From Chloroflexota bacterium (GTDB lineage Bacteria; Chloroflexota; UBA11872; VXOZ01), in NCBI GenBank assembly GCA_012270555.1, contig JAAXIC010000003.1, forward strand, positions 1-64,000: 64,000 nucleotides of DNA. Reading direction: 5' to 3'. The translations under genes were made by a program, and so were the position numbers. The notes beneath the pieces are model-generated. The model was not told the origin of the DNA, made no database searches, and saw only the letters and a program-made list of their open reading frames with translations. Positions 44,912 through 57,236 of the stretch are shown here, in pieces. Position 1 is the stretch's first letter. Every line of letters starts with the position of its first letter.

Positions 44912-46237
44912 TCAGATGCGTGCGGTCCGGATATGTGGGTTCGCCCAGGCCGCAAGCGCCAAGGCCAGGAGGAGCACCCCGCCGGCGGCGAACATGACCC
45001 AGATCTCCACGAACTCAGCAATCCAGCCGCCGGTAAGGGCGCTCGCGGGGATGAGCACAACGGAGAGACTGCGCAGAGTGCCGAAGACCCGGCCTCGGTA
45101 GGCTTCGGGTACGGACGTAATCGCGATCGCGCCGCTGGCGACCATGCTGGCGGTGAGTGCGGCGGTCTCCACGAGCTCTAGGACCAGCGTCACCGGCATC
45201 CATGTCGACGCGGCTATCCCTAGCGTACACACTCCCGCCAGACTCCAGCCTGCTGCCAGCACACGCCCGGCGCCGAAGCGCCGCTCCACCGGCCCTGCCG
45301 CCAGGCCGCCAAATATGCCACCGGCGGTACCCGCCGCCAGCAGTATCCCAAAGGAACCTGCACCGCCACCCAGGCGCTCCTGTACGAGGGCGGGCCACAG
45401 TGGGCCCATGAAGGAGCAGATATTGACAAGCACGCCCAGCCAGAGCAATGCTCGCACCACCGGTAGTTCCGCTGCCGTCCGCCACCCTGCGCGCAGGTCA
45501 TCAATGACCAACCTCGGAGTGAATAGGGGCCGGACTTCGTTTGCGTGCGAGGCAGCGTCTGGTACAGCCCGGCCCGGCAGGCGGGCAAGCGCGATACACA
45601 GCGCCACAAACAGAAATGAGGCGGCATCCACCGCCAGCGCCCACACCGCGCTCGCGGCCGCGATGAGCAGTCCGCCGGCCGCGCTGCCCACCAGCGATGC
45701 CGTCTCCCTGGCGGTTGAGAAGAGGCCTTGAGCAGTGGTGAGCAGGTCGCGTCCCACCACGGACGGCATGATAGAGGCGCGGGCGGGACTCATAAACGCC
45801 GTCAGGCTGTTCAGCTTGAAGACGGCCACAAAGGCGATGACGGGAGGCAAGTGACCGACCAGCACCACCAGCAGCGCCACCGCTCCCACCACACCTGCGG
45901 CGGCAAGGCTGGTCGTCACCATGATCGCCTTGCGGTCCCAGCGGTCGGCAAGCACGCCGGCCAGGGGCGCAAAGATGATGTCGGGCAGGTGCCAGATCGC
46001 CTGGATGATGGCGGTCTGCAGAGTCGATTGGGTCTCCGACCAGACCACCCACATCACGGCGAGGTTGAAGAAAGCATCGCCAAAGACGGAGACCGTCTGT
46101 CCGCCCCAGAGCAATACGAACGCGCGGTTGCGGAACAGCCGCCGGTGGCTTTCTGTGATGTGGAGCAGCTTGTCCTTAAGGCCCACCGCTAAATCCCCAC
46201 ATTTCCCTGCACTCTCCTTTAACCTGCGCGGCGCCAA
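44912..46237 (-). CDS. Major facilitator superfamily transporter
   Basis: A ~441-residue 12-helix transporter of the drug/macrolide-efflux or EntS-like type. The first helix is FVLLWGGQTVSVFGDAFFNLAVMWVV. The loop 2-3 signature is LAGVLADRWDRKAIMV, and further helices include AAAGVVGAVALLVVLVGHLPPV, GGIFGGLAAGPVERRFGAGRVLAAGWSLAGVCTLG (second-half signature) and WVMFAAGGVLLLALALAAWA. The start is a TTG at 46237 or a GTG at 46186; the latter gives a shorter basic N-terminus. Substrate unknown. There is no neighbouring regulator. Confidence 0.87.
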   Translation of the reverse strand: MAPRRLKESAGKCGDLAVGLKDKLLHITESHRRLFRNRAFVLLWGGQTVSVFGDAFFNLAVMWVVWSETQSTLQTAIIQAIWHLPDIIFAPLAGVLADRWDRKAIMVTTSLAAAGVVGAVALLVVLVGHLPPVIAFVAVFKLNSLTAFMSPARASIMPSVVGRDLLTTAQGLFSTARETASLVGSAAGGLLIAAASAVWALAVDAASFLFVALCIALARLPGRAVPDAASHANEVRPLFTPRLVIDDLRAGWRTAAELPVVRALLWLGVLVNICSFMGPLWPALVQERLGGGAGSFGILLAAGTAGGIFGGLAAGPVERRFGAGRVLAAGWSLAGVCTLGIAASTWMPVTLVLELVETAALTASMVASGAIAITSVPEAYRGRVFGTLRSLSVVLIPASALTGGWIAEFVEIWVMFAAGGVLLLALALAAWANPHIRTARI

Positions 46238-46433: not shown

Positions 46434-46555
46434 CGTCATTCCGGCGCAAGCCGGAATCCATCCTCTCTACGCACCCTGGACTCCGGCCCCGTATCAAGTA
46501 CGGGCAGGCTCTTCGGCAAGCTCAGAGTAGGCTTTTCGTCGGAGTGACGGACTGC
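46434..46555. repeat. Two dispersed repeats upstream of the MetRS attenuator
   Basis: 46434-46460 is CGTCATTCCGGCG/CAAGCCGGAATCCA. 46472-46550 is CTGGACTCCGGCCCCGTATCAAGTACGGGCAGGCTCTTCGGCAAGCTCAGAG...GGAGTGACGG, a CTGGACTCC...GGAGTGACGG element into which a CCGTATCAAGTACGGG unit appears nested. Confidence 0.5.
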
Positions 46556-46607: not shown

Positions 46608-46636
46608 TTGACAGAAGCTCTCACAGAGCTTACGCT
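46608..46636 (+). promoter_or_regulatory. Promoter of the MetRS attenuator
   Basis: TTGACA (46608-46613), exactly 17 bp, then TACGCT (46631-46636). Transcription would begin near 46643, about 23 nt before the leader-peptide ATG. The -35 is a perfect consensus match. Confidence 0.65.
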
Positions 46637-46665
46637 GTGAATACCACTTCAAGGAGGGGGAGAGT

Positions 46666-46758
46666 ATGCCGAGCGAAACCCACACCAACCTGATGCACGC
46701 AATGATGCATCGACGGGCGTGGTGTGAGTCCCGCTCGGTCATCATGTGCTTGCACTGA
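46666..46758 (+). CDS. Met/His-rich leader peptide of a MetRS attenuator (30 codons)
   Basis: ATG 46666 to TGA 46758, with the strong ribosome site AAGGAGGGGGAG at 46651-46662. The peptide is MPSETHTNLMHAMMHRRAWC then ESRSVIMCLH: 5 methionines and 4 histidines in 30 residues. Three Met codons cluster at 46693-46707 (codons 10, 13, 14). It lies between a consensus promoter and a terminator, directly upstream of a methionyl-tRNA synthetase gene. This is the arrangement of a leader peptide whose translation speed reports charged tRNA-Met. Confidence 0.7.
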   Translation: MPSETHTNLMHAMMHRRAWCESRSVIMCLH

Positions 46759-46811
46759 CGTACCGATCTCACGGCTCCATCACGCCCAAGGGCAACCGCT
46801 CTTGGGTTTTT
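46669..46811 (+). promoter_or_regulatory. Ribosome-mediated transcription attenuator for the MetRS gene
   Basis: Mutually exclusive pairings can be drawn. (1:2) CCGAGCG 46669-46675 with CGCTCGG 46732-46738, and CACACCA 46681-46687 with TGGTGTG. (2:3) GGGCGTG 46715-46721 with CACGCCC 46781-46787, plus GTGAG 46724-46728 with CTCAC 46768-46772. (3:4) the terminator stem from 46785. Segment 3 overlaps the terminator's left arm, so the 2:3 pairing acts as antiterminator. A ribosome stalled on the Met codons (46693-46707) would hide segment 1 and free segment 2. This predicts induction when charged tRNA-Met is scarce. Confidence 0.65.
46785..46811 (+). terminator. Intrinsic terminator in the MetRS leader
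   Basis: CCCAAGGGC (46785-46793), loop AACC, GCTCTTGGG (46798-46806), then TTTTT (46807-46811) and CGTTT. It is a 9-bp stem with one G-T pair and lies 27 bp after the leader-peptide stop and 38 bp before the MetRS start. Confidence 0.85.
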
Positions 46812-46848
46812 CGTTTAATTGCGCAGTTCCGTAGAGAATGGAAAGCAG

Positions 46849-48291
46849 ATGCAAGCATACATTACCTCGTCAATTCCTTATGTTAATGCCCCGCCGCATA
46901 TCGGCCACGCGCTTGAGCTCGTGCAAGCTGACGCCATCGCGCGGTATCAGCGCCTGGCCGGCAATGCTACGATCTTGCAGACCGGCACAGACGAAAACGC
47001 CTTTAAGAACGTGCTGGCTGCGCAGGCACAGGGCGTCCCAGTTCAAGCGCTCGTTGATCGCAACTCGCAGCGGTTCCACGAGCTTACCCAAGCCCTCGGA
47101 ATTGCGGCGGATACGTTCATTCGGACCACTGAGCCTCGGCACCGCCACGGAGTGGCAGCCTTCTGGCGCAGGCTCCGCCGCGAAGACCTCTTCAAGCAGC
47201 AGTACACCGGTCTCTACTGCACCGGGTGCGAAGACTTTCTCCTGGAGCGAGATCTGGTGTAGGGCACGTGTCCCGAACATCTGGCCGAGCCGGAAACGGT
47301 AGCGGAAGAGAACTACTTCTTTCGCCTCTCCTCCTATCAAGCCGTTCTGGAGGAGGCCATCCGTGGAGGACGTATCAAGATTGTACCGGAGACGCGCAAG
47401 AATGAAGTACTCTCCTTCATTCGGAGCGGACTGCAAGACATCAGCGTATCGCGCGACACGAGCCGCATGGCGGGTTGGGGCATACCGGTCCCCGGTGATA
47501 GCAGCCAGACCATCTACGTGTGGATCGACGCGCTTATCAACTACATCACCGGGCAAGGCTTCGGCTCAAGCGAAGCGTGGCGGCGGGTCTGGAATACTGA
47601 GACCAAGAAAATTCACGTTATCGGCAAGAACGTCTGGAAGTTCCACGCGGTCTACTGGCCGGCGCTGCTGCTCTCCGCCGGTCTGCCGCTCCCGGATGAG
47701 ATCGTCGTCCATGGCTTTCTCACGGTTGAAGGAGCGAAGATCAGCAAGTCGCTGGCCAACGTCATCGATCCCTTTGCGTGTATTGAGCCGTTTGGGGCAG
47801 AGGCGGTGCGGTACTCTCTGCTCACGCTCTCGCCCTTTGCGGACGGCGACTACTCTCAGAGGTATCTAGGGCAACGCTATCAGGCTGACCTTGCCAACGG
47901 CATTGGCAATCTGGCAACCCGACTCACGGCTCTTTGTCAGAAGGCGCGCCTGAATGGACTGCAGCTAGCCGCTGCGCCGGAACTACCGCTTGAATTCGCC
48001 CAGCACATGGCAAGTCACCGCTTTGACCGGGCGTTACGTGCGCTCTGGACACCGGCTACTGCAGTCAACCAGGGCATCGAGAGAGAACGGCCGTGGGAAC
48101 AGATACAGAGTGCGCAGACAGCGCAGTCCCTACGCGAATGGGTACATAGCCTATGGGTCATCGCCTACTGGATGCAACCCTTTATGCCAACGACTGGAGC
48201 TAAGATACTGCACGATCTGCGTCAACCCCACCTTACGCGTCTACCCCCTCTCTTTCCCCGGTTGGAAACAGGGCGACTTGCTGAAGAATAA
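46849..48291 (+). pseudogene. metG: Methionyl-tRNA synthetase gene with one in-frame TAG codon
   Basis: The frame encodes a 480-codon class I synthetase: ITSSIPYVNAPPHIGHALEL (HIGH, residues 17-20), TGTDENAFKN, the zinc knuckle YCTGCEDFLLERDLV, then TAG at codon 138 (47260-47262), then GTCPEHLAEPETVAEENYFF in the same frame, VWIDALINYITG, and HGFLTVEGAKISKSLANVID (KISKS, 297-301). Nothing else is damaged. Family members usually have E or D at the TAG position (ERDLVEGxCP), and GAG to TAG is one base change. It may be a fresh nonsense mutation, a sequence error or a read-through site. The protein is shorter than typical MetRS (500+), so it may be an auxiliary copy. It is preceded by the leader attenuator. 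Confidence 0.8.
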
Positions 48292-48350: not shown

Positions 48351-48483
48351 GTTCGCCCTTCGACAAGCTCAGAGCCTGCCCCGTACTTGATACGGGACGA
48401 CGGTTGCGCTCCGCGTAGGCAGAGCCTCGCTCCGTTCGTGCTGAGGGGCCTTTGCTAAGTCCTGGTCGAAGCATGAACGGAGC
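48351..48483. repeat. Composite TTCGACAAGCTCAGAGCC / CCGTACTTGATACGGG / GCATGAACGG repeat
   Basis: It contains CCCTTCGACAAGCTCAGAGC, TGCCCCGTACTTGATACGGG, GCTCCGTTCGTGCTGAGGGG and TCGAAGCATGAACGGAGC. The last two are complementary ends of one long inverted repeat, about 48426-48484. It lies between the convergent MetRS and SelA-like genes. Confidence 0.6.
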
Positions 48484-55296: not shown

Positions 55297-56559
55297 TTAC
55301 ACGGTAACAGGGGTGCGTTCCAGACCGCGCACCGCTGCTTCGAATGACTCTACGTGCGGCTCGACTTGGATAGTCAGATCGAGCGAATCGGAAACCGCCT
55401 CTTGCGCCTTGAGGCCGTTGCCCGTGACGTAGGCTACCGTGACCTCGTCCGGCGCGATTTGGCCGCTTTCCGCCAGCTTCTTGAGGGTTGCGATGGTCAC
55501 GCCGCCCGCGGGCTCGGTGAAGACGCCTTCCGTCGAGGCCAGCAGCTTGATGGCATCCACCACCTCTTCGTCGGTGACGGATTCAATGACGCCGCCGGTA
55601 TCCTGCGCAATCTTCACGGCATAGTAGCCGTCGGCGGGATTGCCGATAGCCAGCGAATGGGCAATCGTCGTCGGCAGCTTCACCGGGCGGATGGCGGTGG
55701 TATTGGCCGCGTAGGCCTGCGCCACGGGACTGCACCCCTCGCCTTGCGCGCCGGAGATGCGCGTATGCGGCGTGCCGTCCAGCAGCCCAACTTTGTACAG
55801 CTCGTTCAGCCCCTTGTAGACCTTGGTGTAGAGCGAGCCGGAGGCGATGGGTGCCACGATGTGGTCCGGTGCGCGCCAGCCAAGCTGTTCTACCACCTCG
55901 AACGCCAGCGTCTTGGAGCCTTCCGAATAGAAGGGGCGGATGTTGATGTTGACGAACGCCCAGGAGTAGCGGTCGGCAAGCTCACTGCAGAGGCGGTTCA
56001 ACTCGTCGTAGGTACCTGCCACCGAGACCAGGGTCGCGCCGTACACCGCCGCGTTCACCACCTTGCCGTGCTCCACCGTGTGAGGCAGGAAGACAAACGT
56101 GCGCAGGCCGTTGCGCACGCCGGCGGCGGCCGTTGCGCTGGCCAAATTGCCGGTGGAAGCGCAGGCAAATGTATCGAACCCAAACTCCTTGGCCTTCGCT
56201 ACCGCCACCGAGACTACGCGGTCCTTGAAGGAAAAGGTCGGGTTCACGCTATCGTTCTTGACGTAAAGTTCCTTCAGGCCCAGGGCTTTGCCCAGGTTGG
56301 GCGCGGGCTGCAAGGGGGTAAACCCCACGCGCCAGTTCAGGTCTTCGCCGTGCTCCACGGGCAACAGGTCTTTGTAGCGCCACAGCGAAATCGGCCCCTG
56401 CGCGATCTTCTCGTGACTCGTGATTTCACGAATGGCATCGTAATCGTACTCGACCTCCAATGGGCCGAAACAGAAGGAACAGACGTGTGTCGGCTGCACG
56501 GGATAGCGCTCATCGCACTCCCGACACTTCAGTCCCTTAATGCGTGCTACTTCACTCAT
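55297..56559 (-). CDS. thrC: Threonine-synthase-like PLP enzyme under SAM-riboswitch control
   Basis: A 420-residue fold-type II PLP enzyme with an N-terminal zinc ribbon (C12, C15, C27, C30 in LKCRECDERYPVQPTHVCSFC). The PLP lysine is K112 in NDSVNPTFSFKDRVVSVAVAKA, followed by CASTGNLASATAAAGVRNG, a phosphate-binding IASGSLYTKVYKGL region and GVFTEPAGGVTIATLKKL. By similarity it is threonine synthase (O-phosphohomoserine to threonine). However, its upstream SAM-I riboswitch and its coupling to a GGAA-tailed sulfur carrier suggest it may replace the phosphate of O-phosphohomoserine with protein-bound sulfide to make homocysteine, as CysM does with O-phosphoserine and CysO. The chemistry is inferred. 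Confidence 0.85.
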   Translation of the reverse strand: MSEVARIKGLKCRECDERYPVQPTHVCSFCFGPLEVEYDYDAIREITSHEKIAQGPISLWRYKDLLPVEHGEDLNWRVGFTPLQPAPNLGKALGLKELYVKNDSVNPTFSFKDRVVSVAVAKAKEFGFDTFACASTGNLASATAAAGVRNGLRTFVFLPHTVEHGKVVNAAVYGATLVSVAGTYDELNRLCSELADRYSWAFVNINIRPFYSEGSKTLAFEVVEQLGWRAPDHIVAPIASGSLYTKVYKGLNELYKVGLLDGTPHTRISGAQGEGCSPVAQAYAANTTAIRPVKLPTTIAHSLAIGNPADGYYAVKIAQDTGGVIESVTDEEVVDAIKLLASTEGVFTEPAGGVTIATLKKLAESGQIAPDEVTVAYVTGNGLKAQEAVSDSLDLTIQVEPHVESFEAAVRGLERTPVTV

Positions 56560-57027: not shown

Positions 57028-57047
57028 CGTATATCGCAATATTTCCC

Positions 57048-57162
57048 CTTATCTTGCCCCAATGCGCATGGGGCCGGAATTGGCACCCTGTCGTGGACAC
57101 AATCATCGTCCACCGGGATGCCGGGCTTCATAGGGCCGTCTCCCTCCACCTCTCTTGATAAG
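57048..57162 (-). ncRNA. SAM-I (S-box) riboswitch
   Basis: Reading the minus strand: CTTATCAAGAGAGGTGGAGG, GACGGCCCTATGAAGCCCGG, CATCCCGGTGGACGATG..., GGTGCCAATTCC, GGCCCCATGCGCATTGGGGC and AAGATAAG. These are the conserved S-box blocks in the correct order. P1 is CTTATC (57162-57157) with GATAAG (57053-57048). It binds S-adenosylmethionine and normally lowers expression of methionine and sulfur genes when SAM is plentiful. The genes downstream in this direction are the threonine-synthase-like and MoaD-like genes. Confidence 0.95.
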
Positions 57163-57236
57163 GCAACGGTTATTCACTTGTTAATGCTCGCAGGCTCCCG
57201 GCGCTTGCGCCTCGTGCCTGCACCTCATTCCTGAGT

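Follow-up and report, generated by a model that had tools for sequence, protein, structure and literature searches.

The window analysed here, a 64,000-nucleotide stretch of a contig from a Chloroflexota bacterium (VXOZ01), carries on its forward strand a leader region followed by metG, a gene for a methionyl-tRNA synthetase (MetRS; Table 1). The anatomy of the unit is established by direct reading: the promoter, ribosome site, 30-codon frame with five Met codons, competing pairings and terminator reported in an earlier note on this DNA all lie where that note had placed them. Its 9-bp terminator with T5 stands as a terminator with T5, the stem being counted here as 10 pairs (including a G-T; 6 are G-C), and its naming of the downstream gene as a MetRS also held, whereas an in-frame TAG within that gene had been overlooked. 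The −10 hexamer of the promoter has only three of six matches and the promoter was missed by an automatic scan; both hexamers are unchanged in a second genome of the same genus (G005), and TTGAC[AG] with 16–17-nt spacing was seen by eye at the equivalent place in several relatives (L039, L040 and L045–L048). The region upstream of metG in G005 has 97% nucleotide identity to that of the window and keeps the leader frame with its start, its stop and every Met codon (1, 10, 13, 14 and 27). Folding of the 224-nt leader is far above that of dinucleotide shuffles (z = −4.5; 0 of 200 shuffles). Beside the unit, similar repeat-like sequences in opposite orientation flank it on either side (46436–46545 and 48355–48420; by eye), and a probable MFS transporter gene (44912–46237, minus strand; named from its translation) is divergent from it.

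Table 1 Features of the leader and the metG gene in the window (regulatory elements by direct reading)
Feature	Position	Strand	Description
Sigma-70-like promoter	46608–46636	+	TTGACA (46608–46613), N17, TACGCT (46631–46636)
Leader-frame ribosome-binding site	46651–46660	+	AAGGAGGGGG
Leader peptide frame	46666–46758	+	MPSETHTNLMHAMMHRRAWCESRSVIMCLH, then stop; 30 codons, 5 Met counting the start
Region 1, protector helix 5′ side	46669–46676	+	Core of a longer pairing (46669–46686); partner 46731–46738
Regulatory Met codons 10, 13 and 14	46693–46707	+	ATG at 46693, 46702 and 46705
Region 2, antiterminator 5′ side	46715–46724	+	GGGCGTGGTG; partner 46778–46787
Protector helix 3′ side	46731–46738	+	CCGCTCGG; partner 46669–46676
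Region 3, antiterminator 3′ side	46778–46787	+	CATCACGCCC; 4-nt overlap with the terminator
Intrinsic terminator	46784–46811	+	GCCCAAGGGC-AACC-GCTCTTGGGT; stem 46784–46807, T5 46807–46811
Auxiliary metG (methionyl-tRNA synthetase)	46849–48291	+	PF09334 and TIGR00398 above cut-off; interrupted by TAG at codon 138
In-frame TAG in metG	47260–47262	+	CAG (Gln) in G005

The window metG is 96% identical to the G005 copy, the differences are mostly synonymous (dN/dS 0.14) and the TAG is the sole lesion, such that the gene was under selection until recently. From its sequence, the window copy may be inactive, or the TAG base may be an error. Were the nonsense codon real, switch and gene could both be remnants in the window genome, a reading that applies to the window copy alone and says nothing against the family, and that is compatible with the regulatory interpretation developed below. 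We hold such decay to be possible but not the likelier state of the locus: the interruption itself speaks for it, whereas the low dN/dS between the two genes, the lack of any further lesion and the intact leader pairings (with an antiterminator better than that of G005, which contains one mismatch) speak against it, and a single-base assembly error cannot be excluded.

T-box RNAs bind tRNA directly, and Bacillus-type metG genes use T-box leaders. The window leader would share with these the task of sensing uncharged tRNA-Met, but direct tRNA binding operates there and no T-box match was found here. Against Rfam 15, neither the window leader nor any of 15 other loci matched a known RNA family; in particular, covariance models gave no T-box and no SAM riboswitch in these leaders. 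The sole SAM riboswitch match in the window lies elsewhere (RF00162, 74.8 bits; 57046–57164, minus strand), upstream of a threonine synthase-like gene (55297–56559, minus strand; named from its translation); a SAM riboswitch before threonine biosynthesis genes has been listed for Streptomyces lividans (PMC8079986).

The architecture of the leader recurs in relatives from other phyla. Seven leaders (termed type (i)) were compared: those of the window and G005, together with five loci labelled Aegiribacteria, Planctomycetota, Hydrogenedentota, Verrucomicrobia and Victivallales. In all seven, the start, ATGATG, region 2, region 3 and terminator come in identical order at near-constant distances, and the distances from start to Met codons differ by multiples of three. 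Counterparts of the leader frame are present in L039, L040, L042, L043 and L051, and a purine-rich site upstream of the start is also found in the type-(i) relatives. The seven sequences align without gaps in four blocks, with ATGATG invariant (alignment A4), and each helix is largely preserved: the protector with 94.6% of cells paired (G-C to A-U in three sequences); the antiterminator with 91.4% (four pairs in which both members change; none of 500 shuffles attained its covariation score); and the terminator with 92.9% (two pairs changed on both sides), the last showing, taken alone in these seven sequences, no covariation excess over a column-shuffle control. Position and pairing guided the choice of alignment blocks, and this biases them towards structure; shifting helix partners by one to three columns made pairing fall sharply for each helix. 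Extended to all 49 of the leaders with tandem Met codons described below, a segment-shuffling test of the antiterminator gave only partial support, with 17 of 49 reaching p ≤ 0.05, since subfamilies differ in how their pairings are laid out; our claim of covariation is therefore restricted to the type-(i) leaders.

Within that scope, conservation and compensatory changes are established, and the layout and compensatory changes in relatives across phyla place the observation beyond chance. The earlier note had proposed aligning the leader in related genomes; pairings 1:2, 2:3 and 3:4 indeed show compensatory changes in the seven leaders and the Met codons are conserved, and the comparison that could have refuted its reading (homologous loci without the leader frame or the alternative pairings) came out in favour of it. 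The sequence-level elements expected of a leader-peptide attenuator are in place, namely a leader frame with its own ribosome site (for which there are no translation data), Met codons clustered ahead of metG, and mutually exclusive protector, antiterminator and terminator helices, each with compensatory changes. Conservation could in principle reside in the peptide instead, with the nascent chain, perhaps together with a small molecule, stalling the ribosome and the Met residues forming an arrest motif as opposed to starvation sensors. The pattern (M)M[ML]PGA[WR]...GS.IM, alike in L039, L040 and L042, is what such an arrest switch would predict, but this likeness coincides with stretches that are bound to pair in the RNA, and beyond type (i) the peptides share little except the Met tandem (for example, MNRSLANATMMMPRS, MITRSFQMMPRRRGC and MTISPVMMSP), leaving arrest a poorly supported and improbable account.

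To place the leader in a wider context, the MetRS subfamily was traced by a scan of GTDB genomes and by whole-genome searches, and upstream regions were read for short frames containing tandem Met codons. At the thresholds used, the subfamily has a scattered distribution (1 of 199 Planctomycetota, 1 of 241 Verrucomicrobiota, 4 of 64 Gemmatimonadota and approximately 32 of 297 Actinomycetes genomes). A Met-tandem leader frame is present in 49 of the 122 dereplicated upstream regions of the subfamily, against 3.9 expected from dinucleotide shuffles, and 14 of 41 clusters (at 60% protein identity) hold one, versus none of 20 main-type metG genes from related genomes (a comparison in which the start of the window genome's own main metG is imprecisely placed). 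Several loci scored as negative nevertheless carry a leader that contains Met codons, though not in tandem (L098, L130, L139, L140, L180, L184 and L187). The leader is absent from L012 and L013, which were the next relatives identified within the phylum of the window, and from most Patescibacteria bearing a subfamily MetRS. On a quick protein tree, leader presence required 11 changes compared with 28 for shuffled labels; the supported group that includes the window consists of ten rows, drawn from several phyla, and 8 of these rows have the leader. A conserved gene neighbourhood around metG was looked for and none was seen. In L041, an Edaphobacter relative, a leader-like frame (MPSLRSERKNATALKRARFSLSAARSGVMAA) lies approximately 185 bases upstream of metG (start 1194), with Met tandem and terminator lost. 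These frequencies bear on whether Met codons and hairpins might simply have come together before metG by accident: approximately 0.5 terminator-like sites are expected by chance per shuffled region, but the excess of Met-tandem leaders over expectation, their presence before every gene of the plasmid set below and the compensatory changes make coincidence an explanation that we effectively dismiss.

Outside type (i), the arrangement is different in detail. By eye, actinobacterial and rhizobial leaders have a hairpin directly after or enclosing the Met tandem, the 3′ strand of which can pair with the 5′ arm of the terminator, and this layout appears to follow the same attenuation logic in more compact form. 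Several actinobacterial leaders (for example, L162–L175) have the hairpin without a U-run, as might be expected if metG were controlled through translation coupling or Rho, with the final hairpin masking the ribosome site or serving as a pause. However, in the window and its closest relatives the hairpin has the usual form of an intrinsic terminator, is followed by a U-run and lies well ahead of the metG start, and rhizobial leaders carry U-runs too; we consider control by coupling or Rho very improbable, more so even than peptide arrest.

Plasmid records, searched by protein similarity alone and kept as a set separate from the genome scan, yielded eight distinct subfamily metG genes with a readable upstream region (from Rhizobium, Agrobacterium, Sinorhizobium, Streptomyces and Embleya), and all eight are preceded by a leader in which two or three Met codons stand in tandem (for example, MNRSLANATMMMPRS and a stop codon before CCGCCCTTGAGGCGGTTTTTC). 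One record (L199), in which the gene start was not reached, was excluded, and L200 (Nocardia; 39% identity, closer to the main type) has no Met-tandem leader. In Sinorhizobium sp. RAC02, the metG lies on a plasmid typed as conjugative. Several phage records (for example, MW495066.1 and OR846599.1) also contain a metG, approximately 33–38% identical to the rhizobial plasmid protein.

The genomes that bear the leader usually have a second MetRS. The window genome (G000) encodes another, uninterrupted one on a separate contig (C8), and 24 of the 28 leader-bearing genomes checked hold another by TIGR00398 matches, indicating that the controlled gene is usually auxiliary, as had been suggested beforehand for the window; in G123, G690, G509 and G601 the leader-bearing metG is apparently the sole MetRS. 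Conversely, no leader was found in five genomes with a sole copy (G055, G180, G411, G1217 and G1218). The link with a second MetRS is thereby established, and the switch mostly accompanies a spare synthetase. Closest in logic among known systems is the auxiliary antibiotic-resistant TrpRS of Streptomyces, which is controlled by a leader peptide.

Ribosome positions were related to the alternative helices with a ViennaRNA model, in which a ribosome masks RNA up to 10–12 nt beyond the start of the A-site codon, the last arm has still to be transcribed and pairing across the ribosome is disallowed. In all seven type-(i) leaders, the antiterminator formed for stalls at or before the Met tandem and was lost between the second Met codon and approximately three codons beyond. 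Within the model, the position of the Met codons with respect to region 2 is thereby shown to be as classical attenuation requires, with a ribosome waiting there leaving region 2 free. When pairing across the stalled ribosome was permitted, the outcome was not clean (the protector won at Met 13/14 of the window). For full-length RNA at equilibrium, with the ribosome stalled at the first tandem Met of the window, the mean pair probability was 0.68 for the terminator versus 0.90 for the antiterminator, and at the same stall L042 was fully in the terminator form. A stalled ribosome thus does not keep the terminator from competing well at equilibrium, and the switch must depend on co-transcriptional folding. 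Free, untranslated leader RNA favoured the terminator in most leaders (1.00 in the window), with L043 as the exception.

On this evidence, we consider it highly probable that the window leader is a methionine-specific, ribosome-mediated transcription attenuator placed before an auxiliary MetRS gene; its response to tRNA charging and its physiological trigger are inferred, in the absence of expression or starvation data. Transcription would start approximately 23 nt upstream of the leader frame. With Met-tRNA plentiful, the ribosome would pass Met codons 10, 13 and 14, cover region 2 and reach the stop codon; with region 2 either masked or back in its pairing with region 1, the terminator hairpin would form, and RNA polymerase would stop at the U-run before metG. 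When charged elongator tRNA-Met is scarce, whether from methionine shortage or from inhibition of the main MetRS, the ribosome is predicted to wait at the Met codons; regions 2 and 3 would then pair ahead of synthesis of the last arm, no terminator would form and the spare synthetase would be transcribed. By inference, methionine is here both the sensed and the initiating amino acid, and a severe shortage would block initiation on the leader itself; with the leader untranslated and free RNA favouring the terminator, the response should rise and then fall with the severity of the shortage.

Leader-peptide attenuators have been described before trpS and leuS in Streptomyces (PMC1262725) and before trpS, leuS, alaS and thrS in S. 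lividans (PMC8079986). These share with the window system a leader frame of cognate codons, competing hairpins and a synthetase gene downstream, but the window system involves methionine and metG and occurs far outside Actinobacteria, a group in which no conserved upstream RNA structures were seen for methionine genes (PMC1262725). A Met-containing leader peptide like that of the window, metL, has been proposed before metNIQ in S. lividans (PMC8079986); unlike the window leader, it precedes a methionine importer and not metG, its internal Met codons are not in tandem, termination is described as unclear and one species is concerned. In Bacillus, hisS paralogs are preceded by His leader peptides (PMC2965389), and as here a duplicated synthetase has its own leader peptide; the amino acid there is histidine, and metG is unmentioned in the text of that paper. 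Consistent with the earlier note, which knew of no described Met leader for metG, our literature search found none, the metNIQ leader being nearest (most subscription papers were outside reach).

Together, these results extend leader-peptide attenuation to methionine and metG, and so to the one amino acid for which a shortage affects initiation as well, and extend this attenuator type to several phyla outside those in which it is usually described. More tentatively, and with less confidence than in the attenuator itself, the leaders could represent a cross-phylum family of Met-leader attenuators that spreads together with a spare, inhibitor-tolerant MetRS, in some cases on conjugative plasmids, and that may act as a band-pass switch, on at moderate shortage of elongator Met-tRNA and off when initiation fails. 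That a spare MetRS bearing a dedicated switch for Met-tRNA shortage is distributed widely but patchily, rhizobial plasmids included, suggests that natural inhibitors of MetRS, or stresses that limit methionine, are common.
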